Numbered from the stretch's first letter, positions 17,451 to 60,121 are shown. The stretch is DNA of 64,000 nucleotides from Candidatus Kuenenia hertensis (GCA_021646465.1 SOET01000001.1:124001-188000), one strand, 5' to 3'. The notes: generated by a model not told the origin, from the letters alone. Program-made: numbers and translations.

Positions 17451-17472
17451 ATAATGATTGACAGTAGCTTAT

Positions 17473-39506: not shown

Positions 39507-42500
39507 ATGAATCCGTACATTATAATTCGTATATTTGTTGCATTGATTTCGCTATTAATACTGCAACGATGTCTTATTTGCATAAATCATACAGATTGTT
39601 ACGCCGGAATGAAAATCAGCAATGATGAAAACGGCCAGGATACCTATGTACAATTGACGGTAGATATCTCACGGGACAGAAGAGAGATAAGCGATTACCT
39701 TTACGGTGTTAATGTTGCCAACTGGTGTCAGGGGTATTATTTTGATCTGTGTGCGCCGAAGCTGAAAGAGGCAAATGTTTCAGTCGTCAGGCTGGGCGCA
39801 ACAAATATGGAACGGTACAATTACACTAATAACCGCATGTACAATGCATTATCCCGTGAAAATCAGTATGTTTCTATGAGCTGGGAAAGTTTTGTTAAGT
39901 GGTGCCGTGATGATGTAAATGCCGAGCCATTTCTTCTTGTGTCGGTGTATGGTTATGTAGCCGGTGATGGGAATGCTATCGATGGTGAAGATTTTTACCG
40001 CATACAGACCACGGATGAAGTCAAGTCATGGATTTCTTAGGCAGGTGAAGATGTGCAATTCTGGGAAATCGGAAACGAGCCATGGATCGCATGGAAACGG
40101 CATGACTATCCTGGACTTTACGAAGACAGCGCCCACGGAGATCTGGTGCTCAATTCAGACACTGCCTTTGATAACTATTTTAACCGCTTATTAACTCTCG
40201 CAGATGCAATAAAACAGACAAATCCATCAGCTTCAACCTTTGGTCCCACTTCCGCCAACTGGTGGTTATACTGGAATAACGACTATTCTTCCTATTGCCC
40301 CGTCACTGAAATCAACGGACCATCTCTGTCTGACGATGCCGGGTGGCAGATAATGATAGACGAAGAAAATGTATGGAATAATTATGTATTCCCTGACAGG
40401 GGTGATGACTCGCAACTCGTTGGATGGGAAACGGATGAAAATCGTATTTTATGTCAGTATCTTATCCGCGCAAAAAAACATGAAGAAGACACAGGAATAA
40501 GGGTGATTGATTTTTTAAATGTCCACAGGTACATTAGGGCTTTGACGGAATATGACGCTGCCCAGGAAACCAGAGGTTTATGGCAGAATGGCTTTTATTC
40601 CCAGGATGCCGAAGTTGCGACTTCCTTTGCTATCGAACCAAAAATACTGAAGCGGTTTCAGGATATGATTGCAAATTATTATCCTGGGACGGAAATGTCT
40701 TTTTCGGAGTATGATTATTTTTACTGGAGCGGACACCCGGAAAATCCTCAAATTGCGGCAATAGGGCAAATGGACTATCTGGGGTCTTTTGCCAGAATGG
40801 GAGTGAAACATACTTGCAACTGGTATATAGGCGAGCCGAATCAGGCAGGGAGCAGTTACGGGAGGGAAGCTGATTCGGCAAGACAGGCAATGTTCAATGA
40901 AAAAGGCGAGCCGAATCCGAAATACTGGGCATTCCGCCTTATGAGTACTTATTTCAGGGGGGACGTTGTTTATGCAGAATCAGGCGATTGGGAAAAGTTT
41001 TCCGTCCATGCCTGTGTGCAGTCTGATAATGATATTGTTATATTTGCTGCGTACAAAGGGGAATATGATGAATCGGGCGATTTTGTGCATGGCCAGCCGG
41101 CAAAGACCGCTCAGGTGCAGGTAAGCGGTTTTAACGAGACTCTCTATGTGAAACAAATACTGCGTTTCGGCATGGACGATCCCTACATTGTAGAAATGGA
41201 AACAGCAGGGGTTGCTATGAACAACGGCACATTGACGTATGAATTCCAGCCGCTGGCAATATATGCCTTCATCCTTTCTGAAAAAGACGCACAAGCAAAG
41301 CCTTCCACATATCTTCATGTAAACCCGGCACTGATGAATTTTGGCCATTACGAAACGGGTGTCCTCGAAAGCGGCGAAGAAACAGAATATACAATGCCAA
41401 TTTATATAACAAATGCACGGCAGGGTGGCACAACATGGTTGGTTTCGGAGAACGCCTCATGGTTGGATATTGCGGGTGAGACATCAGGGAAGGCAGTTGT
41501 AACCGATGTTGTGTATGTAGCCGTTGACCGTTCGGATTTGACCAAGGGTATTTACGAAACAACAATAGATGTAAGTACACCGGAAGGTGCAGTTCAAATA
41601 CCGGTGACGATGGAAGTAGTATCCCTTGAATCGGAAGGGGTAAAAAGAAATTGCGACTTTGAAACGGGTTCATTGGCGCATGCATGGAATGAATCCGAGC
41701 CGTATTCCGTGGGCTGGTGGGATGCTCATGGCAACCCCGAAGACAGGAATAGTCCTTATATCTACCGCTTTTCTCTGGATCATGAAGAAAAACCATCCAT
41801 GGGCGGCATTGCCTCGATGAAGATAGAGTTTGACCGTTCAAACGGGGATACTGGTAATGGCAAAAAATACATGCCATTCGGCACGTATGGTCATAAAACA
41901 GTAGTTTCTGATGATGGGCAATCTTCGGTAACATACAATGCTACCGGGAACTGGGAGGGATATGAATATCTTCAGTTTGATATTAAGACAGATACGAACG
42001 GCAATTCCACAACAGAACTTTTGCTGACAATTACTGATGAACACGGTAACAAGGGAAAGCCGGATGTGGGAATAAAGAAGTATAACAGGCTTCCTAAGAT
42101 AGAAGATGGCAATTGGCAAACTTTTACCATACCGCTTAAAGGGAGATTTTATGATTGGCGTTACCCTGAAGGGCAGGACGGTTCAACCACAGAACTCGAT
42201 TTCAGCCGCATATCACAATTAGAGTTTACGCCATGGTATGGCGACAAAAATGCATCCGGAGTTATGTATCTTGACAACATACTCTTAACCTCCGATGCTG
42301 AGAACTGGGGGAGATTAGACGGTACTGTGGTAAATAAAAAAACAGGTGAACCGGTTGAATCTGTAAAAATAACCCTGAATAAAATCTCCGGAGGTATTAA
42401 ATGGAAGACATCCTCTGATAAAGATGGTTCTTTTGCATTTGAGAGTCTGGAGAATGGCACATACAAAATAAAAGCAAAAAAAAGCGGATATCAAAAAGTT

Positions 42501-42563
42501 AATACCAAAATAGAAATACAAGGCGAGACGGAAATTACGATTGAAATGAAGAAGACAAATTAG
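39507..42563 (+). pseudogene. GH44-like secreted glycosidase, interrupted by one in-frame TAG
   Basis: Two open segments in the same frame, 39507-40040 and 40041-42563, are separated only by TAG at 40038-40040. Together they encode about 1017 residues: signal peptide (MNPYIIIRIFVALISLLIL), a (beta/alpha)8 glycosidase with YLYGVNVANWC, VSVVRLGATNMERYNYTN, the acid/base motif WEIGNEPW and the nucleophile motif SFSEYDYF, matching the GNEP and EYNY motifs of family GH44. Then come a BACON-like Ig domain (about 610-710), a carbohydrate-binding-like beta domain, and a CarboxypepD_reg-like repeat (GTVVNKKTGEPVESVKITL). GH44 enzymes cleave beta-1,4-glucans or xyloglucan. The catalytic Glu of GNEP lies just after the stop, so a restart at GTG 40053 would lack the first strands. 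Either a one-step pseudogene or a read-through gene. Confidence 0.7.
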
Positions 42564-43395: not shown

Positions 43396-45687
43396 ATGAT
43401 TACTATTGAGAATCTGAGAAAAATACATACCAGAAAGCTTGATAGCGAGAGATTCATTTTTCTTCTGATGTGTATTCTTGCGAGTATTGGAGCTTTTTGT
43501 TTTATTTATATGGCGGGATTTTATTTGGAAATTTTCCGCCAGATATGGATATTTTGGGGACTTGTAGTCTTTATAATTATTGCGAATAAAATCGAGGTAT
43601 TTAAACGTCCTCCCTTACGAATCCTGTTCATTCTGATCATTGTGTTTATTACCCTGCGGTATTTGCACTGGCGCACTTTCCAGAGTTTGGTGTATACGGG
43701 ACCGATAGATTTTGCGGCAACCATTTTACTTTACGGGGCTGAGGCATATGCAGTTGCCATTCATTTTTTCGGCTTGTTTGTTAATGTATGGCCCCTCAAT
43801 CATAAGATTGCGCCGTTGCCTGCTGATCCCCGGTTGTATCCCACGGTAGATATTTTTATTCCCACATATAGTGAGCCTGAAGACGTTATCAGGACTACTG
43901 CCATTTCTTGTACACAAATTGATTATCCGAAAGACAAATTTAATGTTTATATACTGGATGACGGCGGTACTGTTGCAAAAAGGAACCATCCTGAAAAAGG
44001 AATGGAAGCATGGAACAGGTATTATTCCCTAAAGAGAATGGCCAAGGAACTGGGCGTCCGGTATATCACCCGGCAACAAAACATACATGCCAAAGCGGGA
44101 AATCTGAATCATGCATTGCAGCACACAAATGCGGAACTTGTTCTCGTATTGGATTGTGACCATGTGCCAACAAGAGATATTTTGCGGAATACCGCCGGAT
44201 GGTTTTTAAAAGATGAAAAGCTTTTTCTTGTGCAGACGCCTCATTTTTTTATCAATCCTGACCCTTTTGAAAAAAATCTCGCGATATTTGGTGATGCCCC
44301 CGGCGAGAATGAAATGTTTTATCACAGTATCCATCATGGCCTGGATTTCTGGAATGCTACGTATTTTTGCGGTTCTGCTGCTGTTTTACGGAGAAAATAT
44401 TTGATGGAGGTTGGGGGTATTGCCGGTGAAACTATAACGGAGGATGCGGAAACAACTGTTGCTTTGCACAAAAAAGGTTACAACAGTGTGTATATCGACA
44501 GGCCAATGGTATGCGGATTATCGCCGGAAAGTTTTGATGACTTGCTGTTGCAAAGAAGTCGTTGGGCGCAGGGTATGATACAGATTTTTATTTTGAAAAA
44601 CCCGTTATTCGCAAAAGGGATGAAACTGTACCAACGTTTCTGTTATCTGAGTTCTTCTTTATTCTGGTTTTTCGGATTTTCCCGGTTTATTTTTTATATA
44701 GTTCCTGCGGCCTTTTTATTGTTTGGATTAAAGGTATACCATGCGTCGTTTCTTGAGATAATGGCATATGCATTGCCCCATGTTGTGGGGTGTGTTATTG
44801 TGACGGATTTTCTCCATGGCAAATTCAGATGGCCGTTCTTTTCCGAGATATATGAAAGCGTGTTGTCTATATTCCTTCTCCCCGTTATATATTCAGTTAT
44901 CAGGAATCCACGGAAACCTACCTTTAAGGTTACACCGAAAGGAACGAGCCTGGAGGAAACAGTTCTTACCCGGCAGGCAATACCATTTCTTCTTATGGTA
45001 ATTACCATTGTTGCATGTGTTCCTATGGCGATAATAAAGTGGATCCAGTATCCATTGTTTCGGGATATTATTCTCATTACCCTATCGTGGACAGTATTTA
45101 ATCTCTTTATTGCTATGGCGTCACTGGGGGCATTTGTGGAGAGAAGGCAGATACGCCGCCATCATCGTATGTGGGCCAGGGGCAAGGTTAATGTGTATTT
45201 TCCGCGCATGAGGTATGTTGCTCAGGGGGGAATAATGGATATCTCATATTCAGGTATGGGGGTAGAGCTAAAAACGCCGTTTCAAATAAAACAGGAAGAG
45301 GACGTTGTGTTAAACGTGAGAGATATTTACGGGGAAAAGTATGAATTTGAGGCAAGAATATTCAGGCAGATAAAAAAGAAAGAGGAAGTTTTTTGCGGGT
45401 GTGATTTTGTTACAAAGGATAAAGCAACAAAATTGCGCCTGATAAAATATGTCTATGGTGATAGCCAAAGGTGGGAGGATTTTTTACAAAAGCGGTTTAA
45501 GCGCGCAAGCCCGTGGGTCATTTTTTACTTTCTAATACGAATGGGGACAAAAGGAAGCAAGGACTGTGTTGTGCTCTCCTCAAAATTGTTGTATAGTACG
45601 CTGAAAAAAGCTTTTTTTGTAATGTATAGAGGCATGCAATCCTTGTGGCTAAAAACGGCGAAAGGTGACGTTACGCTGGATGGGTGA
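43396..45687 (+). CDS. bcsA: Cellulose synthase catalytic subunit with PilZ domain
   Basis: 763 residues. An inner-membrane family GT2 enzyme that polymerises UDP-glucose and passes the chain through its own membrane channel. Membrane helices lie at about 20-62, 74-92 and 105-130, then the catalytic domain with D188-D189-G (YILDDGG), D253-C-D255 (VLDCDH), TED at 348-350 (TITEDAE) and QRSRW at 386-390, then further helices at about 415-575. The C-terminal PilZ domain keeps both c-di-GMP contacts: the RRQIRR arginine motif (583-588) and D615-x-S-x-x-G620 (DISYSGMG). The product could be cellulose or a related beta-glucan. A 770-bp repeat-filled gap separates it from bcsB. Confidence 0.93.
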   Translation: MITIENLRKIHTRKLDSERFIFLLMCILASIGAFCFIYMAGFYLEIFRQIWIFWGLVVFIIIANKIEVFKRPPLRILFILIIVFITLRYLHWRTFQSLVYTGPIDFAATILLYGAEAYAVAIHFFGLFVNVWPLNHKIAPLPADPRLYPTVDIFIPTYSEPEDVIRTTAISCTQIDYPKDKFNVYILDDGGTVAKRNHPEKGMEAWNRYYSLKRMAKELGVRYITRQQNIHAKAGNLNHALQHTNAELVLVLDCDHVPTRDILRNTAGWFLKDEKLFLVQTPHFFINPDPFEKNLAIFGDAPGENEMFYHSIHHGLDFWNATYFCGSAAVLRRKYLMEVGGIAGETITEDAETTVALHKKGYNSVYIDRPMVCGLSPESFDDLLLQRSRWAQGMIQIFILKNPLFAKGMKLYQRFCYLSSSLFWFFGFSRFIFYIVPAAFLLFGLKVYHASFLEIMAYALPHVVGCVIVTDFLHGKFRWPFFSEIYESVLSIFLLPVIYSVIRNPRKPTFKVTPKGTSLEETVLTRQAIPFLLMVITIVACVPMAIIKWIQYPLFRDIILITLSWTVFNLFIAMASLGAFVERRQIRRHHRMWARGKVNVYFPRMRYVAQGGIMDISYSGMGVELKTPFQIKQEEDVVLNVRDIYGEKYEFEARIFRQIKKKEEVFCGCDFVTKDKATKLRLIKYVYGDSQRWEDFLQKRFKRASPWVIFYFLIRMGTKGSKDCVVLSSKLLYSTLKKAFFVMYRGMQSLWLKTAKGDVTLDG

Positions 45688-46457
45688 ATAGTACAAGACG
45701 CATTGCAATGCGTCTCTACAAAGTGTGTGGGCGTTGTTTTGGTGGGCAATGCCCACACCTACATTGTTAAAAGCAGCCGAAGGCCTAATTTAACGTTTAG
45801 GAATTTTCATTTTTTTAATGAGGGTTTGCGGGGAGGTGTAGTTGTAATAAGTGTAACTACAATCAGATATGACAAAAGTTGCAGGATGTAGGACAAGCGT
45901 TCTGTCTTGGTCCTGCTCGTTCCCAAACTCTGTTTGGGAATGTAATGGGTGAGAAACTCTGTTTCTCTCTTGCCTGTGCGCTGCACGCAGACAGGCAACC
46001 AACCGATAGGGTTTTCGGCAATTAATGGGACATCCGTGAAACAAAGTTTCACGGCAACATGGTATTCCGAAACAGAGTTTGGGAACAAGCAGGTATATGT
46101 TGCTGCCGAAGGTAGCCTATTTTAATGTTTAGAATTTCAAACTTTTTTTCTTCTCGTTCCAAAGCTCTGGCTTTGGAACGCAATTGCAAAGGAAGCTTTG
46201 CTTCCTGTTATGAGAAGCAGGAGCTTCTCGAACACGTGCGTTCCCAAGTCGGAACTTGGGAACGAGCCGTGTAAAAAAATGTGTTCCTGGGGAGGAACGG
46301 AGACGCGAATTTTCGTGTATCTGATTAAGGGGGGGAGGCTTCGCAGGCCTGATTAATGAGAAATTTCAATCTTTGTAGGGGCTGAAGACTTCGTCGTGAG
46401 CTCAGTCGAACGATTTTCAGCCCCTACGTTGAATGTTTTATCCCATAAAGTTGCCGG
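45688..46457. repeat. Cluster of short palindromic repeats between bcsA and bcsB
   Basis: No gene. Palindromes in order: GACGCATTGCAATGCGTC (45698-45715), GTGTGGGC with GCCCACAC (45723-45759), CCCAAAC/GTTTGGG pairs near 45930, GTGAAAC/GTTTCAC near 46037, TTCCAAAG/CTTTGGAA near 46158, GGAAGC/GCTTCC near 46190, and GTTCCCAAGT/ACTTGGGAAC near 46240. The first 75 bp recur at 63466-63540 with few changes. These look like dispersed repeats rather than regulatory sites of the cellulose genes. Confidence 0.7.
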
Positions 46458-48611
46458 ATGCCTGATTTAAAATTGAAAAAATTATTATATTCTATAATAG
46501 TCATCTTTTGTTTCGCAAATTTGGTACATGCGGCAGTAATAGAAGTACCTTTATACAAACTTACCCCTGCAAAAACCATTGATTTAAAATGTATCAGTTC
46601 TGAATACGCTATCCCGCTCAGCGTTCCGGAACGATGGGAAATTGAAAAAGCAGTCATGCGCTTTAAATATGTAAACTCATCTTCTCTACTGGAAGACAAG
46701 TCTACCCTTGTAGTGAAAGCAAACGGATATCCGATCGCACAAATCAAACTGAGTCCCATCGTTCCGGAGGGGGAAGTAAAGGTGGCGATTCCTGCGATTT
46801 TACTCGATCCGGGTTATAACACTATCAGTTTTGCAGTTACGCAGCATTATACCGATGAGTGTGAAGACCCGTGCGCTCCTGATCTCTGGACGACAATTAA
46901 AGTTGACGAATCTCTTTTGCGTGTGGAATACAGCCTGAAACCAATTCCTTTACAGTTGTCGGCGATTCCTGAATTGATATTTGACCCTAAAATATTTCCT
47001 CATGGAAAGGTAAATTTTGTAGCGGATGGGCTCACCTCTGAGGAATTAATCAATTATGCAGGGGTCGTTGCTTCCGGAATCGCGCTGCGATATGATTACC
47101 GGCAGGTATTTTTCAGCCTGAGTAAAGATATCAAGCCCAATGTGGATAATATCCTGTTGGGAAAAAGGGAGTTTATAAGTGATTTCTTAAGAAAAAAAGG
47201 CATCGAAATACATGAAGATGCCAGGCCCCTTTTAAAAATAACGCATCTTCCATTGGAAAAAACTATACGCGATCCTTATCATGCCTTAATAATTATTTCC
47301 GGGGAGAATATTGATCAGGTAAAATTAGCCGCTGACACGTTCGCCATTATGTCTTTTCCTTTTCCCGATAGCGACGAAATGACGCCGGTCAAGTTTGAAC
47401 TTCCGGACGTTTCACAATACAGCGGCAGGCTTATGCTGGTTCCCGATAAAAAATATACCTTTAAAACGCTTAATCTTGAAACGTATACTTTTAAAGGGAT
47501 AACTCCCAATCCGGCAGAAATTACCTTTCGTCTGCCTCCCGATTTTCTGGTGAAACAAAATCAATACGCAAATATTTCTTTACACTTTGCGTATGGCGCC
47601 GGTATGAGGGATTTTTCGGTGCTGAATGTATTGCTGAATGGAAAACATATCAGGGCGGTTCGTCTTGACAATGAGTATGGGAATATTGTGGAAGGATACA
47701 ACCTCTCAATCCCTACCCATTTGTTTCGGGCGGGAACGAACGTTATTACATTTGCGCCGGTGTTAATCCCGACAATGAGCAGCAACTGTGAACCGATACC
47801 GATAGATAATCTTTTCTTTACCCTGTTTGATAATTCTACGTTTATTTTTCCTCCAATGCCTCATCTTGTAGAATTGCCCAAGCTGGAACTGTTTTTTTTA
47901 AATGGGTTTCCTTTTACCCGCTGGCCTGATGGACACGAAACGATTATCTTTATTACCCATCCAACTTCCAGCACGATTGCTTCCGCCTTTAACATTATGG
48001 GGTCGATTACCCAAAAAAACGGATTTCCCCTTTTGGAAATGAAAATTGGTTTTCGCAAACCTGATGAATGGGATGGTGAAATTATTACTCTGGGCAGTAT
48101 CGAAAGTATTCCTGACGATTTAAAAGAACTGGCTCCTTTGAAACTTACAAAAAAGACATCCGTTCCTTATCCTGTGGTGAAAAGCTGGCGGGATGAAAAA
48201 ACCCTTGCCTTCAGCGGACAAATAAGCGATTTTGGCAAAGGGAAAGGTGCAGTTATGCAATTTAAATCACCTTACAAGGTAGGACGTACGATATTAATGG
48301 TTACCGCATTTTCTCCGAAAGAGTTGAATATTTTTAGCAGGACGCTTCTGGAACCTGCCGTAGAGGGTGCATGCAAGGGTGATCTGGCATTAGTTGACCT
48401 TACTTCCGCTCCCGATTATAAAGTGTTTGCCTTTGATATAGGGAAAAAATATTTCAGCGGCAAAGGCGGGAAAATATCCCGAATAAAGGCGTATTTATAT
48501 TCCATAAGCAAGTATTATGTTTATGTTTTGATTTTTGTCCTTCTGTTTTTGGGAATAACTGTTTTCTATCTGTTACATCGCTTTAGAAAGAGGAGGCTGA
48601 AAAGTGCATAA
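46458..48611 (+). CDS. bcsB: Cellulose synthase periplasmic subunit
   Basis: 717 residues with a signal peptide (LYSIIVIFCFANLVHA), a long periplasmic region of alternating beta-sandwich carbohydrate-binding and flavodoxin-like domains, and a C-terminal membrane anchor (YVYVLIFVLLFLGITVFYLL) followed by basic residues. This is the BcsB layout. The anchor helix supports BcsA, and the periplasmic domains guide the glucan. Conserved-looking spots include VTQHYTDECEDPCAPDLWT near 120 and FLRKKGIEI. The stop overlaps the start of bcsZ by 8 bp. Confidence 0.88.
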   Translation: MPDLKLKKLLYSIIVIFCFANLVHAAVIEVPLYKLTPAKTIDLKCISSEYAIPLSVPERWEIEKAVMRFKYVNSSSLLEDKSTLVVKANGYPIAQIKLSPIVPEGEVKVAIPAILLDPGYNTISFAVTQHYTDECEDPCAPDLWTTIKVDESLLRVEYSLKPIPLQLSAIPELIFDPKIFPHGKVNFVADGLTSEELINYAGVVASGIALRYDYRQVFFSLSKDIKPNVDNILLGKREFISDFLRKKGIEIHEDARPLLKITHLPLEKTIRDPYHALIIISGENIDQVKLAADTFAIMSFPFPDSDEMTPVKFELPDVSQYSGRLMLVPDKKYTFKTLNLETYTFKGITPNPAEITFRLPPDFLVKQNQYANISLHFAYGAGMRDFSVLNVLLNGKHIRAVRLDNEYGNIVEGYNLSIPTHLFRAGTNVITFAPVLIPTMSSNCEPIPIDNLFFTLFDNSTFIFPPMPHLVELPKLELFFLNGFPFTRWPDGHETIIFITHPTSSTIASAFNIMGSITQKNGFPLLEMKIGFRKPDEWDGEIITLGSIESIPDDLKELAPLKLTKKTSVPYPVVKSWRDEKTLAFSGQISDFGKGKGAVMQFKSPYKVGRTILMVTAFSPKELNIFSRTLLEPAVEGACKGDLALVDLTSAPDYKVFAFDIGKKYFSGKGGKISRIKAYLYSISKYYVYVLIFVLLFLGITVFYLLHRFRKRRLKSA

Positions 48612-49635
48612 GATATTGAGTAGAGTTGCTATCTGTTTTATTTTTATGATAGGAATAAGCAAAATAGTGTGCGGGAAAGAGCCGGCTGTTTGGGAAGAAT
48701 TTAAGTCGAACTTTGTCAGTCAGGACGGCAGGGTGATTGATTATTACAACGGCCATGTCAGCCATTCTGAAGGGCAGGGATATGGAATGTTATTGGCGGT
48801 AAAATATGATGATAAAGCTGTCTTCGATAAACTATGGCAGTGGACGCAGGATAATATTGCAGTAAGGAACGATCATCTGTTTGCATGGAAATGGGGGGAG
48901 CGAACGAGCGGAAGTTGGGGGGTGGTTGATTATAATAATGCAACGGATGGAGATATTTTAATTGCATATGCCCTGCTCAGAGCCGATGAACAATGGCCAG
49001 ACAATAAATATAAAAATACGGCATTGAGGATTATCGGGAGTGTAAGAGAAAATCTTGCAGTGGAATGGAATGGTTACCAATTCCTTTTGCCGGGATATCA
49101 CGGATTTATAAGGGATAACCGTTTTATATTAAACCCTTCCTATATCATTTTTTCAGCGTATCGCACATTTGCAAAGATTGACAACGAAGTTTTCTGGCAG
49201 AAGGTTTACAAAGACAGTATGTTGCTCATAGCAAAATCCTGTTTCGGATCGCTTAAAATGCCTGCGGACTGGGTAATGCTGGATGGTAAAAACATTTCTC
49301 TTTGTGATGAAAGAAAGCCTTATTTTGGTTACGAAGCAATCCGCGTATTTCTCTATCTCTCCTGGGAAGAAAATCCTCAATTCCCTGAAGGGCTTGAGAA
49401 GATGCTGGATATGTATAATAAGCTGGGCTTTATCCCCCTTTGGGCAGATCTTGCAAATGACAGCATTTCACTGCAAAATGCCCCTCCGGGTTTTTACGCC
49501 GTGTTTGCCCGTGCAGCAGAAAAGGCCGGTGAAAAAACGTTAAGTAAGAAATTATTCAAAGAGGCAAGTGAAAGGTTGATGTATGATAAAAAAGATTATT
49601 ATTCTTTTTGTTTATATCTCTTAGCCGAAGAGTGA
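48604..49635 (+). CDS. bcsZ: GH8 endo-1,4-beta-glucanase of the cellulose cluster
   Basis: 343 residues from a GTG that overlaps the end of bcsB, with AGGAGG at 48591-48596. A signal peptide (about 1-24) precedes the GH8 (alpha/alpha)6 barrel. Catalytic residues: E56 in SHSEGQGYGM and D115 in NNATDGDILIAYAL. GGERTSGSW-type text (WGERTSGSWGVVDY) precedes it. It trims or edits nascent cellulose in the periplasm. Co-translated with bcsB. Confidence 0.92.
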   Translation: MHKILSRVAICFIFMIGISKIVCGKEPAVWEEFKSNFVSQDGRVIDYYNGHVSHSEGQGYGMLLAVKYDDKAVFDKLWQWTQDNIAVRNDHLFAWKWGERTSGSWGVVDYNNATDGDILIAYALLRADEQWPDNKYKNTALRIIGSVRENLAVEWNGYQFLLPGYHGFIRDNRFILNPSYIIFSAYRTFAKIDNEVFWQKVYKDSMLLIAKSCFGSLKMPADWVMLDGKNISLCDERKPYFGYEAIRVFLYLSWEENPQFPEGLEKMLDMYNKLGFIPLWADLANDSISLQNAPPGFYAVFARAAEKAGEKTLSKKLFKEASERLMYDKKDYYSFCLYLLAEE

Positions 49636-50403
49636 ATATAGTCAAAAGCGTCTGGTTTTCGAAAAATAAACAAACCCTAAATCCCCTCTTGATAGAGGGG
49701 ACTTCCTGTTTTTTCCCCTCTAAAAAGAGGGGTGGCAGCATAGCTGACGGGGTGTGTATTTAAACATTGAATAGCACCATGAATTTTTAAAATCTGATTT
49801 GTTTGACTATGTGTTGTGCGGCGTTTTTCACCGCAAGGTCGGATTTCTTACCCGATTCCTCACGGCGGGTTTAGCAAGTAGGGTAGGCAATTCCCTTCCC
49901 TACTTCTTCTGGTTCAATCCGCAAGATTGAACCAGCAAGAGTTTGTAATTCGCAGGGGGGATTCAAATTGGCACGTTATTAAAAAAATTTTCTTGATAAA
50001 TTAAATTAAGTAGTGTAGAAAACGCAAGTTAGAATCATTTTTTTTCGGGGGAGACAGCATTTATTTTGGTATTTGGGAATTGTAATTTGCCTGAACAAGA
50101 CATGGTAATTCATATACAACAAACAAATCCCAAATCCCAATATCCAAACAACCAATAAATTCCAGTAAACAAAACCCAAATCTTTGCATAAATATCAGTG
50201 AACGAAAATTGAAACTTCAAACAATACGATCTTGAAAAAAGAGCGTTTCAATTTGCAAAGAATGTTGCTCTATACATAAAGCAATTATCCAAAAATGTTT
50301 CAAATATAGAATATGGAAAACGAATTGGCAAAGTTTGGATTTTGGAAATTTGTTATTTATTTGGTATGTGGGAATTGTAATTTGTGATTTATCTGTAATT
50401 AAG
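49636..50403. other. Repeat-rich stretch before the first SPOR-TPR gene
   Basis: 768 bp. It contains repeat copy A (49677-49757), a version of the GGTCGG/CCCGAT hairpin near 49828, the perfect stem TGGTTCAATC/GATTGAACCA (49910-49934), and a very AT-rich part. A 28-bp phrase including GGGAATTGTAATTTG occurs at about 50061 and again at about 50356. No gene is seen. Confidence 0.55.
49677..49757 (+). repeat. Dispersed repeat, copy A
   Basis: Runs from CTAAATCCCCTCTTG to GCTGACGGGGTGTGT and contains CCCCTCTAAAAAGAGGGG. An inverted copy (B) lies at 54237-54323, so the two copies flank the first SPOR-TPR gene in opposite orientation. Confidence 0.75.
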
Positions 50404-53400
50404 ATGAAAGTAGTCTATAACTTTATAATTTTTATATATATTTTTTTGTTGATAAGTGACGCCACTGCATATTCAGCCGGTAGTTCCAGCGAATCACGTT
50501 TATACACCATTCAGGTTGCCCATGTCACTGATTTGGAAGAAGCAAAGAAGCGTGCGAAGCAGTTATCGCAACTCATATTTCTTCCTATCCGCGTAAAAAA
50601 AACCATGCAGGATTATTTTGTTATTCTTGCAGGAGAAGCGGAAAGGCGTTCTGATCTGACACGTTTTGAGAGTGTTATCAGGGAGAATGGATATTCCCAG
50701 GCTTTTATTGTGAATGATTCGTATGGTGCGGTTCCTGCTATTCTGGAAATATTGCCAACTCAAACCAACGCGAAGCTGGCAGTATCAAAAAATAAACCGG
50801 AGAAAACGAATGATTCCGCCCCTCTCTATACCATCCAGGTTGCCCACATTACCAACAGGGAAGAAGCAAAAAAACGCGCAAAACACCTTTTCCGTGTTGC
50901 CCATCTTCGCACACGGATAAAAGAAAAGGATCAATATTACATCCTGCTTGCCGGCAGGGCAGGGAGGCGTTCTGATTTGCTGGACGATATTGGAATTATA
51001 CGGGAAAACGGATATCCCCAGGCAGTGATTATTAAAAGTGGTCGCCTGGAATCACCGGAAGTTTTAGATGATTTGCCTGTTACAGAGGTAACGAAGGAAA
51101 GGCAGTCGAACCTGCTGTCACTCGTTCAGAAAACTCATTATGGTGCGGATGATTCTGGTGTATTTGAAACTGATGATACTTTGTTTCATTCAACGGAAGG
51201 AGGAACAGGATATTCCGGGGATGACAGATGCAATGAGAAAAATGATACTGTCGTGCAGGCATGGGACTATTATCGGGAAAAACGATTTGATGAAGCCCTT
51301 GAGTTGTGCGACAGAATGTTGTTTTTCGATCCGTTCGATATCGATATTTTATATTTGAAGTTAAATATCCTTGTGCATACACAAAAATATATGGAAGCGA
51401 GGATGATACTGGTCAACATACCGGAGGAAAAAAGCACATTGAAATTGTTGCAGCTACGCGCGGATCTGGAGTTTTGGCTGGAAAATTATGACAATGCTAT
51501 TGCTCTGTATCAGGATTTGCTCAGGAGATGGCCGGAAAATGGTGATATCTGGTTTGGGTATTTGAAAACACTTTCAGTGGCACAGGAATGGCCGTTGCTG
51601 TCAAAAGCGATAAAAGAAGGAATAGACAAAATAGAAATGTCCGATGATAGACTGGATTTCCTGGTCGAGATGTATTTATCTTTGGCGGAGACGGAAAAAG
51701 CGCTTTGTATATGGAGAGGAATGGAGGCAGCCTCGGCCCATTGGAACAAAACTCTTTTTGCAATAGTCAATAAATTAACTGCTGATAAGAAACTGGAAAT
51801 GGCTGCTCAGGTTCTGGAGGAGGCATTGGAAATGGACGGAACGAATGGCCTCGTTGCCGGGGAATTGGCCCTTAAATACGCTTCCCTTGGTATTCCGGAG
51901 AAAGGGCTGGAAACTTTACGTTACATTGAAAAAATGCCGGAAACCAAAAATATTGTGAATAGAGCAAAAGCCGAAATATTTTCTCTTATAAAAAATTATG
52001 AAACTGCATTATCAATGTTACAGACAGTTGAGCAGGATAACCATGATAACCACAGGGCTCTTCTTGTTGAACTGGAATGCTGTTATGGTTTGGAAGATTA
52101 TGAATCGCTTATTACAAAATCATCTTTATTATTGCAAGAATGTAACAAGGAAGACTCTTCTCTGCGATCAAGGGTATTAGTCTTGCGGATACTTTCGCAG
52201 ATCAAAGTAGGATTGCATAGAGAAGCGGAAAGAGAGATCGTATTATTGAATGAAACGAAGGAAGATAAATATGCAGCCGCAATCCTTTCTGTTTTACTTT
52301 ACGCGTATGAAGGTGTTGAATTGTTATCGGCGCTGGAAAATACCGATTACGGTTCCGCAGTCTTTTCCCTTTCATTATTCGCTTCCAGCGGACAACTGGA
52401 AGAACATTACAAGTCTATTCAGGTTCTCGGGGAAGTTTTGAAGGAACCTTCTTCATGGTCAAATACGATACAATCACAACTTCTTGAAGATGAATTATTG
52501 TTCGATACGTCAAAGGTAATCGCCCTCCGCATGCTTCATGCCTGGAAGATTGCGGATGAATTATCCGGGCATAATAATGCAAACATAATGGCACAGTTAG
52601 CGATGGCCGAATACAGGGCAGGGAATTTTCAGGAAGCATTAGAGTTGTATGAGCAATTATGCAGAAAACAGGAAAATAGTGATATATATAAGCTGGGAGC
52701 GATGGAATGTTTTCTGGCAATGAACAATAAAAGCAAAGCGGCAGAAGTGTGTAATGAAATACAACTATTGAACTTGCCCTGGCAGGAAATACCCCGTTAC
52801 CTGGAAAATTTGGTGAAATTGGAAATAGAAAGAGAGGCGCTTTATAAGATAATCTCCGAATTGCCGGAAGATTTGGCAAAAAACACACATATAATAGCAA
52901 CCGTTGCAATAGCAAATATTCAATATGGTGATTACTTTCTTGTAAATGAAATGTTAGCGGAATATCTCTTAAATAATCAGTCGTATATTTCCTTCTTTCA
53001 AGTAATCATGGATCAGGTTGGGGATCTTGATAAGGGGTTGAGAGGAAAATACTATCGATTTGTGAAAAATTGGTTAAGCAATGCAGTAGAGTTATATCCT
53101 GAGAATACAAGCCTTCAGTATCAGTATGCAAGGTATCTGGCTTTGCACGACGAATACGAATTGGCAAAGAAACAGTTTTTGGCGATGTGGGAATTTAATC
53201 CCAATGATACCCGTGTAATGCGATGGATGGGAAGATTACATAGCCGGACACAACAATTTGAGACTTCGTTAAAATGGTATGATCTGTATGTGAAAACCAG
53301 GCCTTCGGACGTTTTTGTCTACCGTGAACGGGAACACGTCAATCATTGGGTGCTATGTAAAAAACAATCTGACATGGTATACGCAATGGTTTGTCAGTTT

Positions 53401-54120
53401 ATGCCGGGAGATTACAACAGTTGCTGGGAGTGGCAGGCAAAGAGGAGCGACTTAAACGCGAACCAACAGTCCGTGTTTCTGCAGGATATGTTTGCCACGC
53501 ATTATCAGAAAAGACGCCATTTCCCCCTTACTCAATTAAAACAAGCTGCTTTTTACAATGATTCAGACAGTGAACGGGGAACTATCTATAGTGGTATGTT
53601 TGGAAACAATTATGATGATAACGGGTATTCTTTTGATCGGAACGCGGGAAAATGGAAAAGAAACCAATCGTTTGTTTTTTTCGTTTATAATGGGGAGAGT
53701 GCTGATAGTGAAAGAGGAGATTCTCCGTATCCTTTATCCATGCGGATTAATAAATATTTTGCTATGGGTTTACCGGCGACAATGGACCCTTCTCTCAGTT
53801 TTGAGGAAAAACTTATGGATTTAAAAAAAATTGACAGTTCAATACCTGATCGCTTCATGGTAACTTTGAATGAAAGTTTTGAAGAGAGATTAAAGAATTA
53901 TATAGAAGAAAAGATATTACAGTATCCGGGAGAGAATGAAAAAGGGGAGAGATTTGAGATAATCAGAGATAATAAAATGAATGCTTATTTTGATTTATCA
54001 TTGCGGTGTGAGAAAAAAGGAATTCAGGAAGGTTTAAATGCCCTGCCTTCTTATGAATTGAAGAATGTTTCAACTGCATTGGGAAGAATTTTTCTGAGTA
54101 GTTTATTAGACGAAGGATGA
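50404..54120 (+). CDS. Large secreted SPOR-TPR protein without a barrel
   Basis: 1238 residues from the ATG at 50404, chosen because a signal peptide begins there (MKVVYNFIIFIYIFLLISDA); an in-frame ATG at 50335 would bury it. Two SPOR-like repeats follow (LYTIQVAHVTDLEEAKKRAK and LYTIQVAHITNREEAKKRAK, each with a GENGY- or REN-GYSQA-type end), about residues 30-105 and 140-215. SPOR domains usually bind peptidoglycan. From about 265 to 1010 it is TPR-like helical repeats. The C-terminal 200 residues are unassigned and not beta-barrel-like. Paralogous to the next gene, with which it shares the same order of parts and phrases such as EWQAKR. Probably part of glucan export or its cell-wall scaffold. 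Confidence 0.7.
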   Translation: MKVVYNFIIFIYIFLLISDATAYSAGSSSESRLYTIQVAHVTDLEEAKKRAKQLSQLIFLPIRVKKTMQDYFVILAGEAERRSDLTRFESVIRENGYSQAFIVNDSYGAVPAILEILPTQTNAKLAVSKNKPEKTNDSAPLYTIQVAHITNREEAKKRAKHLFRVAHLRTRIKEKDQYYILLAGRAGRRSDLLDDIGIIRENGYPQAVIIKSGRLESPEVLDDLPVTEVTKERQSNLLSLVQKTHYGADDSGVFETDDTLFHSTEGGTGYSGDDRCNEKNDTVVQAWDYYREKRFDEALELCDRMLFFDPFDIDILYLKLNILVHTQKYMEARMILVNIPEEKSTLKLLQLRADLEFWLENYDNAIALYQDLLRRWPENGDIWFGYLKTLSVAQEWPLLSKAIKEGIDKIEMSDDRLDFLVEMYLSLAETEKALCIWRGMEAASAHWNKTLFAIVNKLTADKKLEMAAQVLEEALEMDGTNGLVAGELALKYASLGIPEKGLETLRYIEKMPETKNIVNRAKAEIFSLIKNYETALSMLQTVEQDNHDNHRALLVELECCYGLEDYESLITKSSLLLQECNKEDSSLRSRVLVLRILSQIKVGLHREAEREIVLLNETKEDKYAAAILSVLLYAYEGVELLSALENTDYGSAVFSLSLFASSGQLEEHYKSIQVLGEVLKEPSSWSNTIQSQLLEDELLFDTSKVIALRMLHAWKIADELSGHNNANIMAQLAMAEYRAGNFQEALELYEQLCRKQENSDIYKLGAMECFLAMNNKSKAAEVCNEIQLLNLPWQEIPRYLENLVKLEIEREALYKIISELPEDLAKNTHIIATVAIANIQYGDYFLVNEMLAEYLLNNQSYISFFQVIMDQVGDLDKGLRGKYYRFVKNWLSNAVELYPENTSLQYQYARYLALHDEYELAKKQFLAMWEFNPNDTRVMRWMGRLHSRTQQFETSLKWYDLYVKTRPSDVFVYREREHVNHWVLCKKQSDMVYAMVCQFMPGDYNSCWEWQAKRSDLNANQQSVFLQDMFATHYQKRRHFPLTQLKQAAFYNDSDSERGTIYSGMFGNNYDDNGYSFDRNAGKWKRNQSFVFFVYNGESADSERGDSPYPLSMRINKYFAMGLPATMDPSLSFEEKLMDLKKIDSSIPDRFMVTLNESFEERLKNYIEEKILQYPGENEKGERFEIIRDNKMNAYFDLSLRCEKKGIQEGLNALPSYELKNVSTALGRIFLSSLLDEG

Positions 54121-54490
54121 GTTACAAGAAATCGGGAATGCTCCCCAAGATTATTCCGCATGTTTCCGCCCCTTAACCCACCGAATATTTCTGTCATTCT
54201 TTTTGTAAATAATTTGTATCTATTCAGCGTGTTAAGACACACCCCGTCAGCTACGCTGCCACCCCTCTTTTTAGAGGGGTAGTAGAGACGCAATGCATTG
54301 CGTCTCTACAAGAGGGGATTTAGGGGTGTGTTATAAATTACGCTGAATAGATACTACAAAACAAGTTAAAATTGCTCATTTGACCCAGTCTGAGGAGCTT
54401 GGAGACAAGAATGGGGATTTACAAAAACTTGGGAATGCTCCTGTTGCAATTGAGAACATTTTCTAAAAACCATTAAAAGAAAAAACCGGC
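54121..54490. other. Gap between the two SPOR-TPR genes
   Basis: 370 bp. It holds the MITE-like element (54216-54354) and a short copy of the phrase TTTGACCCAGTCTGA near 54377, which recurs near 63645 (inverted) and 63780. No gene. Confidence 0.55.
54216..54354. mobile_element. 139-bp MITE-like element (repeat copy B inside)
   Basis: Perfect 15-bp terminal inverted repeats: GTATCTATTCAGCGT (54216-54230) and ACGCTGAATAGATAC (54340-54354). Inside lies the inverted counterpart of repeat copy A (54237-54323), and inside that a 28-bp perfect palindrome with GAGACGCAATGCATTGCGTC (54282-54309) replaces the matching part of copy A. Similar 28-bp palindromes occur near 45695 and at 63465-63492. No coding capacity and no clear target-site duplication. 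Confidence 0.65.
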
Positions 54491-57400
54491 ATGAAAAAGT
54501 ATTATTTACGATTATTGGCAGTGAATAGTTGCTTCTTTCTGGTTATTCTCATTTTTAATTGTTCCACTGCAATACATAACAATTGGGCCGCAGATAACGA
54601 ACTTCGCCAGGAAAATATTATTGAAAAGAATTATTATAAAAACAGGAAATGGTTTGCGGGACTGAATAATTACCTTTTAGCGGAAAATACCTCAAAGGGT
54701 TTGGTTGCTAAACTGGGTATGTTAAAAGGCAAAGCGATGGCAAAAGAGATGAAAATGTTTACTATTGTGGTGGCAGATTTTACTGATTGGGAAGAAGCGA
54801 AACAACACACGATGCGTGTCTCGCGTATGGTTCCTTTTCCGGTATGGTTAGAACAGACGGATCACACGTATAGTATCCGAGCAGGATATTCTGCAAGACA
54901 GGAGGATTTATTACCATATGTAAAGACAATTAAAGAAAATGGCTATCCCAAGGCGTCTTTAAGTATTTTTTCTTTTAAGGAGAGAAAGGTTGTTTTAGAA
55001 GTGTCTCCTTCTTTGGAAATAAAAAGGAAAGAAGGGGAACAATTTTTGGAAATTAAGAGGAAGAAGCAGGTCGGTACGGGGAGGGTTGATCTTTCTGATG
55101 TAGAAGAGAGGTTGATTGAAAGTGAAGAAGAGGCTACGGAATTTTTTCGAACATACGAAGGAGATTATTACATTGGCAAGGCATGGAGGAGTTATCATGC
55201 GGGCAATTTTGATCAGGCAATTGAATTTTTTAATTTTGCAGGGACATTTGCCGAAACCGAGCAGGATGCCAGACTTGGAGTAGCGTATTGTTATATTGAA
55301 CTGGGGAAGAAGGAAGAGGCGCTTTCTTTGTTTGATGAATTAGTGGCGGAAAGATATAAGGTAAAAGAGATAGCGGATGTTCTTGTAAAAATAGAATGTT
55401 TTGACAAAGCCCTTGAATTGTGTAATAAGGTCCTGTTTACTGACCCGTTTAATATAGATTTTCTGATACTGAAGATAAACATTCTTGTACAAGGAAAAAA
55501 TTTTGATGCAGTCAGGTTAATCCTGGCGAGTATCCCAAAAGATAAAAATACCCTCGAATTGTCACTCCTTGCGGCAGATATAGAAGCGTGGGCGAAAAAC
55601 TATGAGAAGGCGATAGAAAAATATCAGAAATTGATTCGACAATTCCCGGAAGAAAGCGATGTATGGTTAGGCTATCTAAGGACAGTGACGTGGGCAAAAA
55701 ACTGGTTGTTATTGTCAGACATTTTACCGCAAGGGTTTGAAAAGGTTGAAATGAATGATGAAAATCGTCTTTTTTTTGTGGATGCTTACCTTGAATTGGG
55801 CGAGATTGAAAAAGCCCTTGATGTGTGGGATAAAATGGATGCGGATGCAAAGGACTGGAGCAAGTCTTTATTGAAAATAGTTGATAAATATATGGCATCC
55901 GGAAAACTGGAGGAGGCGACAAATTTATTGAAAAAAACATTAGCAACAAAGAAAAAAGATATTCACATTGCAGAACGGCTGGCGATAAATTATTTGTACT
56001 CAGAGGTGCCGGAAAAAGGTTTTGAAGCGATTGGCCAGTTTCAGCGTAGTCCGGAGACGCAGCTCAACATTGACCTCACCAGGGCAGAACTCTTTGCATT
56101 GTTAAAAAATTATGAAGCATCTTTGTCCCTCCTGCAAACAATTGACGTATCAAAAGATGAAGGAAACCGTGCTGAAATGGTGGAACTGGAGTGTTATTAC
56201 GGGCTGGAAAAAGATGAAAAGCTTGTGGAGCGTGCGGCTCTTTATTTGGAAAAATTATCGGAAAACGATACGGTTGACAGGGCTAAAATGTTGACCCTGT
56301 CTGTTCTTTCCCGGATGAGAATAGGGCAATACAAAGAAGCGGAGAAAGAAATTGAAATATTAGAAGACACACTGCCGGAAGATTACGGTCCTGCAATTCT
56401 CAGGGTGTTATTAAAAAATGCCAGCAAGCGGTTGACCGAACATGATGGATCGATTCAGGCATTAGGTGAGAAATTGGCAGGGTACTCAAAAAATGCAACA
56501 ATGGTGCGGCTTCAGCTCCTTGGTGATGAAATGTTGTATGATCAGACAAAGGTTTTGGCAATACATATTCTTGAGGCATGGAGAATTGCCGGTGAAGTGT
56601 CAAGGCATAAGAACAAAGACATCATGTACCAATTAGCACGGGCGGAATATAAAGCAGGTAATTATCAACGTTCCATTGATATGTATAAACAATTATATGC
56701 GGAGGAGAAAAACAACACCTATAAAATAGGGATGGTGGAGTGTTTTTTGGAATTGGACGACATTGAAAAGGCGAACGAATTATTTGATGAGATACATTTG
56801 CCTGATTTAATGGCGAGGGATATTTCACGGTATTTTGAAGGTATGCTGCGATTAGGGAGGGAGAAAAAGGTATTTTATGAGGCGTTATCGTTAATTCCCC
56901 CTGGTGTCATGGATATGGTGGCGATGAAAACAATAATCCTCGTTGCTCAATTATATTATGATAATTATGAAATTGCGGAGAGCAGCATAAAGCAATACCT
57001 TACGGACAAACAGGAAGATGTCTCTATTTTCAGATTGATCATGGCACGAATAGGGTATTTTGAGAAGGGTGAAAAAGGGAAATGCTATGAATTTGTAAAT
57101 GACCAATATCAATATGCAACGGAACGTTTTCCGAAGGACACGGGTATTCGGTACGAATATGCAAAACATCTTGCTTCGCATCGGGAGTATGAACCGGCGA
57201 TAGAGCAGCATTTGGTGTTGTCTGAACTTGTTCAGGATGACTATAGAGTCATTCGTTGGCTGGCACGTCTTTTTAGCTGGACAAAGCAATTTGATAAAGG
57301 GTTGATATGGTATGATAAATATACAGAGTTAAGACCACAAGATATTGTGGTGCGTCATGAAATCGCGAGGGTCTGTGGATGGGCGCTAATGCTTGAGGAG

Positions 57401-58576
57401 GCAAATGAGGCATATGAAAAGTTATGTGAAGACTTTCCTGATAATTATGAACTTTACTGGGAGTGGCAGGCGAAGAGGAATAACTGGTTAAAGCGTAAGC
57501 GATTGGCGGTTTTATATTATGAGAAACTGGTGGAACGCCACCCGGAAGACGCGGAACTTGTGTTTGATCTGGGGCAGTTGTATTCGCAGCTTAATTTCAG
57601 CAAAGAATCCGAAGATACATACAGAAAACTGCTTGTTTACGAACCAGATAACACTCGCGCAACATTTGCCGCGGAATCTGAAAAATGGAGAAGGACGCAA
57701 TCTTTGGGGCTGAAACAAACGTATATCCATCAGGAAGGAACGGGAGACAGTTTTGGCAATTTTGAAATAACGCGGTTTAGAACGGATTTAAATTATATTC
57801 CAGCAAGGTTATCGGAAGCAACGGATATTTCTATGAGTCTGGGGCATACGATATTCAATTTCACGAAACATACCGGATCGATGGCAGAACATGTTTTGCT
57901 CAAGGGAAGCAAAAATTTCCGGAATGGGATCAGGACGTATTTAAATGGTGAATTGTCGGCGTACACGGAAAACAATGAAGAAACGATTCAGTTTGAAACG
58001 GGAATAAATTATCAAATAGCTGAAATGTTTGATACAACAATGTTTACAGGGAGAGAGGATGTTCTGGAGAATTTTGTTACCTTAAGGAATCACAGGGCGC
58101 GCTATTATACCGGCGGACGTTTTATGTGGGATATAAATGAACATGTTGACGTGTATGCTCAGGCGAAACAGTACTGGTATAATGACGGGAATAACGGATT
58201 TGAGTATGATGCGTCTGTCGGGTATAAATTTTTTGTGTACCCGAGGATTTTGAAATTTTCGGTGGGGTTGTTTGGTTATGATGTACGAACAAATACCGAT
58301 GAATATTGGTCTCCCAATGCGTATCAAAAATATTCAGCGAGTCTGAGTTGGCGGCATTATTTGGGGAAAGAGCATTACGCGGGGGCGCCCGAATTTTTTT
58401 ATGAAATTGCCATGAAGCAAAGTATTGACAACGACAGTATTGATTTTGCGGAACCGTCTCTCGCCTGGGGATGGGATAACAAAAGGCGCATGAATGCAGG
58501 GTTTGAAATAAAGCCCATGAGATCGGTTGTATATGATGAAGAACGGATACATTTCTTTTTTAACGTGCGGTTTTGA
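54491..58576 (+). CDS. BcsC-like SPOR-TPR outer-membrane protein
   Basis: 1361 residues. Signal peptide (LLAVNSCFFLVILIFNC), one SPOR-like domain at about 93-165 (MFTIVVADFTDWEEAKQHTM), TPR-like repeats from about 220 to 1060, and a C-terminal region of alternating beta-strands (about 1075-1361) ending in phenylalanine (HFFFNVRF), as outer-membrane barrels do. TPR plus barrel is the plan of BcsC, which carries cellulose through the outer membrane, so this is the likely exporter of the bcsA-bcsB-bcsZ system. The N-terminal SPOR domain is not part of the enterobacterial BcsC. Its stop directly abuts the stop of the convergent cyclase gene. Confidence 0.75.
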   Translation: MKKYYLRLLAVNSCFFLVILIFNCSTAIHNNWAADNELRQENIIEKNYYKNRKWFAGLNNYLLAENTSKGLVAKLGMLKGKAMAKEMKMFTIVVADFTDWEEAKQHTMRVSRMVPFPVWLEQTDHTYSIRAGYSARQEDLLPYVKTIKENGYPKASLSIFSFKERKVVLEVSPSLEIKRKEGEQFLEIKRKKQVGTGRVDLSDVEERLIESEEEATEFFRTYEGDYYIGKAWRSYHAGNFDQAIEFFNFAGTFAETEQDARLGVAYCYIELGKKEEALSLFDELVAERYKVKEIADVLVKIECFDKALELCNKVLFTDPFNIDFLILKINILVQGKNFDAVRLILASIPKDKNTLELSLLAADIEAWAKNYEKAIEKYQKLIRQFPEESDVWLGYLRTVTWAKNWLLLSDILPQGFEKVEMNDENRLFFVDAYLELGEIEKALDVWDKMDADAKDWSKSLLKIVDKYMASGKLEEATNLLKKTLATKKKDIHIAERLAINYLYSEVPEKGFEAIGQFQRSPETQLNIDLTRAELFALLKNYEASLSLLQTIDVSKDEGNRAEMVELECYYGLEKDEKLVERAALYLEKLSENDTVDRAKMLTLSVLSRMRIGQYKEAEKEIEILEDTLPEDYGPAILRVLLKNASKRLTEHDGSIQALGEKLAGYSKNATMVRLQLLGDEMLYDQTKVLAIHILEAWRIAGEVSRHKNKDIMYQLARAEYKAGNYQRSIDMYKQLYAEEKNNTYKIGMVECFLELDDIEKANELFDEIHLPDLMARDISRYFEGMLRLGREKKVFYEALSLIPPGVMDMVAMKTIILVAQLYYDNYEIAESSIKQYLTDKQEDVSIFRLIMARIGYFEKGEKGKCYEFVNDQYQYATERFPKDTGIRYEYAKHLASHREYEPAIEQHLVLSELVQDDYRVIRWLARLFSWTKQFDKGLIWYDKYTELRPQDIVVRHEIARVCGWALMLEEANEAYEKLCEDFPDNYELYWEWQAKRNNWLKRKRLAVLYYEKLVERHPEDAELVFDLGQLYSQLNFSKESEDTYRKLLVYEPDNTRATFAAESEKWRRTQSLGLKQTYIHQEGTGDSFGNFEITRFRTDLNYIPARLSEATDISMSLGHTIFNFTKHTGSMAEHVLLKGSKNFRNGIRTYLNGELSAYTENNEETIQFETGINYQIAEMFDTTMFTGREDVLENFVTLRNHRARYYTGGRFMWDINEHVDVYAQAKQYWYNDGNNGFEYDASVGYKFFVYPRILKFSVGLFGYDVRTNTDEYWSPNAYQKYSASLSWRHYLGKEHYAGAPEFFYEIAMKQSIDNDSIDFAEPSLAWGWDNKRRMNAGFEIKPMRSVVYDEERIHFFFNVRF

Positions 58577-60121
58577 TTACTCTTCGTTATCAAATACAAT
58601 AATAATGGGATGTTCCAGCGACTGGTTTACCTCCCCGACTGAAATATCTGCGGAGAGAGAACGTCGTTCCGTTTTTGAGGCGGTTGAGGAGATAAACGGG
58701 TTGGGCACGACTCCCCCCAGCATGAGCAAATAGGTGATCATGAACGGAATTGAAACTGCCATTGAGACCTTTACGAAAGGAAAACGTTTTTTTGCAACAA
58801 CTTCTTCTTCCTTTGTGCCGAATTTATCTAATTCTATTTCTTTTTCATCCCAAAAGGCTTTGTAAAGTCTGAATTCACCTTTTTTGCCTTTTAACGTTGT
58901 GGATTTTATATATCGGATATATATTTCAGACTTATCTGTTAATGCGTTGTATGTATCTTCTGTGAGGTAGATTTCTCCGGGATTGGAGGCAGATTCAATT
59001 CTTGATGCGACATTTACCACGTCTCCAAAAATATCATTTTCTTCTACTACACCTTCTCCGGTATGCAAACCCATGCTGACAAGAAGGAGGGTTTTGGGTT
59101 TTTTTTCTACATTGTAACTGTCAAAACCGATTTGTGCCTCGACTGCGGCAAGAACGGCCTTTTGTGCGTCTTCGAAGTAAGATAATGTTCCGTCTCCCAT
59201 GGTCTTAACCAATACGCCGTCATATTTTTTGATAATGGGGAAGAGCACGTCATTATGTTGTTTCATGATAGTTCGGCTTGCGATATCGCCTTCCGCGTCA
59301 GCAATGGAGGTTGAACCTTTGAGGTCGGTAAACATCACCGTCATGCGTTTGGTGAATTTTTCCTTAAGGAGGTTTTCCAGGTATTCCCTTTGTTCGATAA
59401 GTTTTTCTATGTCGCTTGGTTGGGGAGAGTTGTGTTTGACCTTTTCAATCGTTTGTGATATTTTTTCTTTTACTTTTTCTTCATCCTTCTTCCCCTGATG
59501 GCTTTCTTCCTGTTTTTCGTCCACAGTGTTTTTTACTCTAGTTTCAGGTCTGAAATATTCTGGTTTTTCTGCTTCAATCATTGTTGTGGCTGGCGAGTTA
59601 TATGTTATGTTATTGTTTTGATTTTCTTCTGGTATTGCGTCAGTTTGAGTGTTTTTTCCACAGGTTTTGACTGTTGTGTATGCTTTCGGCATTTCTGCAA
59701 TCTTGTCTGCGGTGTTCTCTGTTGCAGCATGTGCTTCAGTGATTTGGTCTTTATCAAATGTATCATGAGCGGTAATGTTTTCGCTTCGTATTTCTTCGCT
59801 ATTTTCCGGACTGATTTCTCTTTGTGCAGGATTTATAGTAGCATTTATTTTTTCTTCGGGAAAAATGTGGTTTTGCACCTCTTGAACGGTAACAGTTGTT
59901 TCTTCGAAAGTATTATCACGCAATGTATCATCGGCCTTTTTGGGGAACGGTTGATTGTATTCCTGGTTATCTTCTGCCGGAGAATTATTTTTGTGCGTTT
60001 CTAAGAGTTCGTTATTGCTGTTTGTTTCTTCAGGTGTTTGTGTTGCTTTGTTTTCTTCTTTGTTGTTTGTTTCAAGAAATGAATCCAAGAAATTGGTAAA
60101 TTTCTTATTGAAAAAAGACAT
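58577..60121 (-). CDS. Class III adenylate/guanylate cyclase
   Basis: 514 residues. Residues 1-230 are a low-complexity acidic linker rich in N, E, T and K. The cyclase homology domain spans about 258-425: metal ligands D266 (FTDLKGST) and D310 (VKTMGDG), and the transition-state pair N370 and R374 (GDVVNVASRIE), all present, so it should be active. A membrane helix lies at about 453-472 (VSMAVSIPFMITYLLMLGGV), placing the domain before, not after, the helix. Makes cAMP or cGMP; which one is not clear. The gene ends with zero bases between it and the convergent SPOR-TPR gene. Confidence 0.88.
   Translation of the reverse strand: MSFFNKKFTNFLDSFLETNNKEENKATQTPEETNSNNELLETHKNNSPAEDNQEYNQPFPKKADDTLRDNTFEETTVTVQEVQNHIFPEEKINATINPAQREISPENSEEIRSENITAHDTFDKDQITEAHAATENTADKIAEMPKAYTTVKTCGKNTQTDAIPEENQNNNITYNSPATTMIEAEKPEYFRPETRVKNTVDEKQEESHQGKKDEEKVKEKISQTIEKVKHNSPQPSDIEKLIEQREYLENLLKEKFTKRMTVMFTDLKGSTSIADAEGDIASRTIMKQHNDVLFPIIKKYDGVLVKTMGDGTLSYFEDAQKAVLAAVEAQIGFDSYNVEKKPKTLLLVSMGLHTGEGVVEENDIFGDVVNVASRIESASNPGEIYLTEDTYNALTDKSEIYIRYIKSTTLKGKKGEFRLYKAFWDEKEIELDKFGTKEEEVVAKKRFPFVKVSMAVSIPFMITYLLMLGGVVPNPFISSTASKTERRSLSADISVGEVNQSLEHPIIIVFDNEE

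Follow-up and report, generated by a model that had tools for sequence, protein, structure and literature searches.

How does a bacterium hold a polysaccharide secretion machine in place within its envelope? The question is raised by a cellulose-type gene cluster at positions 43396-58576 of a 64,000-nt stretch of the anammox bacterium Candidatus Kuenenia hertensis (GCA_021646465.1 SOET01000001.1:124001-188000). We refer to the whole stretch as "the window"; positions count from its first letter, and features lie on the + strand unless stated otherwise. An earlier note, made from the sequence alone, had described bcsA (with a PilZ domain), bcsB, and bcsZ followed by genes for two paralogous proteins of 1238 and 1361 aa, and the coordinates, sizes, and families it gave all hold. 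We refer to these first and second giant tetratricopeptide repeat (TPR) proteins after bcsZ as "STPR1" and "STPR2." Because this exporter pair starts with SPOR domains, which are known cell-wall binders, cellulose secretion in this bacterium may be coupled to the cell wall, a possibility suggested by sequence and predicted structure. SPOR domains have been described in cell division and in cell-wall enzymes, and are not normally found on such exporters. Should they bind the wall here, they would be a means of fixing polysaccharide secretion machinery in the envelope, and would open an approach to matrix formation in anammox bacteria.

An exporter pair with SPOR domains

STPR1 (50404-54120) has 1238 aa when counted from an ATG; a longer reading from a TTG begins at 50335. 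The protein consists of a signal peptide with no evident lipobox, two SPOR domains, a TPR solenoid, and a short tail. The SPOR domains (50497-50712 and 50824-51036), each with the motif YTIQVA, match PF05036 with an E-value of 8e-11 and 42.6 bits, against a gathering score of 21 bits. STPR1 is a paralogue of STPR2 (about 31-33% identity), and Pfam finds TPRs in both. The tail of STPR1 (53614-54063) corresponds to the opening ~150 residues of the STPR2 barrel (blastp 2e-7 with 18% identity; hhalign 95.8%). By these alignments, STPR1 is an exporter duplicate that has no complete C-terminal barrel and keeps a decayed first half of one. Its frame is nonetheless open for ~1200 codons in three species, with a ratio of nonsynonymous to synonymous substitution rates (dN/dS) of about 0.25, and all of its domains are under purifying selection (0.20-0.46). 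The equivalent values are 0.06-0.10 for BcsA, BcsB, and BcsZ, and 0.12-0.15 for STPR2.

STPR2 (54491-58576; 1361 aa, ending in NVRF) has a signal peptide, one SPOR-like domain, a TPR solenoid (55172-57670, limits approximate; Pfam TPR_19 9.7e-35 and others), and a predicted C-terminal outer-membrane beta-barrel (57680-58573). The earlier note called both proteins SPOR-TPR proteins. For STPR1 this is evident from Pfam; in STPR2, Pfam finds no SPOR match, and the description stands by fold. The region in question (54755-54970; motif FTIVVA) is homologous to the SPOR domains of STPR1, and in an AlphaFold model it folds b-a-b-b-a-b. Foldseek matches this model to the SPOR domain of RlpA (6i09; template modelling [TM] score 0.80 by target length, root-mean-square deviation 2.0) and to that of CwlC (1x60; TM score 0.76). 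The corresponding VIA-align result was filled by the TPR part of the model and does not bear on SPOR.

The case for the STPR2 barrel rests on prediction and profile comparison, because Pfam and Protein Data Bank sequence searches with it returned only TPR matches and a weak match to PgaA_barrel (E 0.014). The predicted model of residues about 1064-1361 has ten long antiparallel strands in its first two thirds, and its structural matches in VIA-align are outer-membrane barrels: OmpG (Z 14.5), PelB (Z 12.0), and PgaA (Z 11.1). Pfam BCSC_C has no match up to an E-value of 10 in any of 13 barrels. A profile built from the close barrel set alone reaches neither the BcsC barrel (hhalign 3.5%) nor PgaA (0.2%), but once distant planctomycete exporters are added, the profile aligns with the BcsC barrel at 97.4% and with PgaA at 88%, against ≤4.6% for OmpF, OmpC, and OmpG and 0.2% for reversed alignments. 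Since there is no BCSC_C match but the profile aligns with BcsC barrels, STPR2 is, on predicted fold and profile comparison, a BcsC-like TPR-porin, though no BcsC under the Pfam definition. The claim that only the second protein has a barrel thus survives, with the STPR2 barrel predicted at low confidence. Structure prediction had been named as its test: it gave a barrel in STPR2 and a SPOR fold for the SPOR-like region, and neither of the contrary outcomes, a missing barrel or a different fold, occurred.

Synthase core, gene order, and history

The genes upstream of STPR1 encode a recognizable synthase core. BcsA, the UDP-forming catalytic subunit with a C-terminal PilZ domain (43396-45687; 763 aa), scores 821 bits against TIGR03030 CelA, whose curated cut-off is 699, and its PilZ domain matches Pfam at 8e-9. 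The catalytic motifs DDG, DCD, TED, and QxxRW align with those of Escherichia coli BcsA, and the same alignment shows that both motifs for cyclic di-GMP (c-di-GMP), RxxxR and DxSxxG of PilZ, are kept. BcsB, the periplasmic partner of the synthase (46458-48611; 717 aa), matches PF03170 at 2.9e-106, and BcsZ, a periplasmic glucanase of glycoside hydrolase family 8 (GH8) (48604-49635; 343 aa), matches PF01270 at 4.8e-62. BcsZ retains the catalytic acid, with E56 aligned to E. coli E55; E244 stands at the position of E. coli D243, the catalytic base of the E. coli enzyme, and this D-to-E change is found in all four genomes that carry bcsB.

These four genomes (G000, which holds the window, G019, G020, and G024), all from anammox bacteria, are the only ones with a PF03170 match among 392 Planctomycetota genomes. 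Each has 20-40 GGDEF matches. Among 33 Brocadiaceae genomes, bcsB was not found in Brocadia, Jettenia-like, or the other genera, so that the gene order is not one shared across Brocadiales, where the earlier note had proposed looking for it. The order A-B-Z-STPR1-STPR2 recurs in G019. G024 has A-B-Z-STPR2, with STPR1 absent. In G020, A-B-Z-STPR1 form a tight operon of overlapping or abutting genes, and STPR2 lies ~263 kb away on a chromosome of 4,406,153 bp. Two further observations concern bcsB. Inverted repeats of the GTTCCCAA/TTGGGAAC type lie in the 770-bp gap between bcsA and bcsB in the window (45688-46457); the G020 copies of these genes overlap by 4 bp. In G019, bcsB (L035 4599-6814) is in two frames of 609 and 118 aa, reflecting a frameshift or an assembly error.

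Relatives of the exporter extend beyond the bcsB carriers. Exporters 47-50% identical, without SPOR, occur in Brocadia and G030. In these loci (L042, L041, L039, and L044), the SPOR-less exporter is accompanied by GH8 and one or two PilZ synthases of glycosyltransferase family 2 (GT2), with no BcsB; the Brocadia locus L042 adds a hybrid kinase, a GGDEF-HD protein, and an HDOD protein. In other planctomycetes (L097, L098, L101, L102, and L103), a GT2-PilZ-TPR fusion of ~1180 aa adjoins a TPR-barrel exporter, together with a GH5 in L097. In a tree with the distant exporters as outgroup, STPR1 and STPR2 join (98/97) apart from the Brocadia exporters. Because G024 STPR2 falls inside the STPR2 group, the tree suggests an old duplication, one that predates the divergence of G024 and genus g1, followed by loss of STPR1 in G024; the long STPR1 branch calls for caution. 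On one reading, bcsABZ was acquired and then joined to a native exporter.

The exporter gene of G020 is interrupted. A ~1.7 kb element (L036 14006-15708) with an open reading frame (ORF) of 518 aa breaks STPR2 near residue 1258-1260 and shortens the barrel; bcsA-bcsB-bcsZ-STPR1 remains intact. A search of the rest of G020 for the last ~100 barrel residues found nothing; it lacked a dedicated positive control, although a longer barrel query does find G019 and G024. This break is possibly a natural knock-out of the exporter, as read from the sequence. G020 contains 21 full-length copies of the element; G000, G019, and G024 contain none. The IS1634 group has 20 full copies, only in K. stuttgartiensis MBR1 (PMC7709395), a planktonic strain to which G020 may correspond. 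Neither Pfam nor NCBIfam matches the element to a transposase, and we therefore could not tell whether it belongs to that group. The authors of the MBR1 study suspected that a switch from flocs to planktonic growth selected MBR1 over the floc-forming KUST. CSTR1 likewise turned planktonic, after transfers (PMC7709395), which means that a break in STPR2 need not be required for planktonic growth. Disruption of the exporter in MBR1 would open a link between the cluster and planktonic growth to direct strain comparison.

Several neighboring genes complete the picture of the region. Upstream of bcsA, a gene resembling glycoside hydrolase family 44 (GH44) (39507-42563) reads through in one frame apart from an in-frame TAG at codon 178 (40038-40040); its G019 homologue, 79% identical, is open over its full length of 1017 aa. 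A response regulator-PAS-GGDEF-EAL protein is encoded ~24 kb upstream of bcsA (17458-19659). Downstream, and convergent with STPR2, lies a gene with an adenylate/guanylate cyclase domain (58577-60121, - strand; PF00211 2.8e-18), which is also kept next to STPR2 in G019 and G024.

Probable peptidoglycan anchoring and its alternatives

With modest confidence, we favor the explanation that the genes form a Bcs-type secretion cluster under c-di-GMP control, with a modified exporter that is probably anchored to peptidoglycan and with STPR1 as a scaffold. BcsA and BcsB would polymerize a glucan, either cellulose or a close relative, and extrude it into the periplasm, where BcsZ would trim it; STPR2 would then convey it along the TPR solenoid and out through the outer-membrane barrel. 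In E. coli BcsC, it is the first (N-terminal) TPR that touches BcsB, and the solenoid extends across the periplasm (PMC11379886). The SPOR domains precede this same end of the solenoid, and the inner end of the conduit would therefore be held at the peptidoglycan, which in K. stuttgartiensis lies under the outer membrane (PMC4432595). STPR1, which occupies the bcsC position of the operon, would most likely bind peptidoglycan in the periplasm and act there as a scaffold or guide alongside STPR2, a partnership that we infer. In the simplest model, the export conduit would be held to the wall mainly through STPR1.

The SPOR domains themselves speak to this model. The SPOR domains characterized to date bind denuded glycan, and RlpA Q270, at position 8 of the SPOR profile, contacts it (PMC6895207). 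In STPR1, this Gln is kept in the first SPOR domain in all three species and in the second in two of the three (Arg in G020); judged by their residues, the STPR1 domains look binding-competent. Their setting is also unusual: Pfam SPOR matches occur in 119 of the 392 genomes and, among the matches listed, sit on ORFs of ≤811 aa except in this cluster, the only one with a SPOR match on an ORF of >1000 aa. This distribution and that of bcsB make the earlier proposal of a design for a "planctomycete envelope" too broad. Its interpretation is supported in part: the cluster, the BcsC-like exporter, and the barrel stand, the anchoring is a probable reading, and the scope does not hold.

Several observations weigh against the anchored-exporter model. 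The conserved Gln is missing from the STPR2 SPOR domain in all four species, replaced by V or E. Pfam does not find Amidase_3, which normally supplies denuded glycan, in G000, G020, or G024; this puts the supply of that ligand in doubt, and the SPOR domains may be docking modules instead. An alternative built on these points is that SPOR has been repurposed to bind BcsB, the nascent glucan, or another SPOR domain rather than peptidoglycan, making this a Bcs exporter with a docking module. The location of the domains, where E. coli BcsC meets BcsB, would suit such a role, as would the confinement of Pfam SPOR matches in G000 to this cluster. We consider this alternative possible but doubtful, given the Gln retained in STPR1 and the denuded-glycan binding of the SPOR domains studied to date. 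The barrel model, too, is weak, with a mean predicted local distance difference test score (pLDDT) of 49 and an unreliable last third that falls below 40.

The remaining contrary points concern STPR1. G024, if its system is functional, does without it; the G019 tail carries a further deletion; and constraint on STPR1 is two to four times weaker than on its neighbors. The absence from G024, the weaker constraint, and the decayed half-barrel would fit a decaying duplicate with no present role, leaving STPR2 to work alone. This seems unlikely to us, since every STPR1 domain is under purifying selection in a frame that has stayed open in three species, the gene lies inside the tight G020 operon, and a duplication older than the split of G024 and genus g1 means that STPR1 has lasted. 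Least probable, in our judgment, is that the exporter serves another polysaccharide or several synthases, its place beside bcsABZ being one use among others. The BcsB-less Brocadia and G030 loci, the GGDEF regulators near the exporter cluster in Brocadia, and the distant exporters that adjoin GT2-PilZ-TPR fusions, with a GH5 in one case examined, all point that way, but the exporter and bcsABZ belong to a single gene run in the window, G019, and G024.

Comparison with known systems

A literature search found no paper that mentions both BcsC and a SPOR domain, and none that combines anammox, Brocadi, and cellulose synthase; for anammox together with BcsA, it found only a soil metagenome study. 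The closest known relative is the Bcs system of E. coli and Komagataeibacter, with which the cluster shares the synthase core, the GH8, the A-B-Z-exporter gene order, the c-di-GMP motifs, and an exporter made of a TPR solenoid and a C-terminal outer-membrane barrel. It differs in the N-terminal SPOR ahead of the solenoid, a departure from the enterobacterial design that the earlier note had recognized, in a barrel that the Pfam BcsC model misses, in a second exporter copy that has no barrel and takes the bcsC position, and in the D-to-E change at the GH8 base. The TPR-porins PgaA and PelB, which serve poly-N-acetylglucosamine (PNAG) and Pel, likewise join TPRs to a barrel, and the STPR2 barrel model resembles both; here, however, the synthase is of the cellulose type, a GH8 stands in place of PgaB or PelA, and SPOR is added.

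In alginate export, a separate periplasmic TPR protein without a barrel, AlgK, works beside the barrel protein AlgE. STPR1 and STPR2 may divide their labor in a similar way, although STPR1 carries a pair of SPOR domains and lacks an evident lipobox, and STPR2 keeps TPRs of its own. With FtsN, DedD, DamX, and RlpA, the two proteins share the SPOR fold and, in STPR1, the Gln at model position 8; in those cases SPOR belongs to division proteins or a lytic transglycosylase, whereas here it stands at the N-terminus of giant export proteins.

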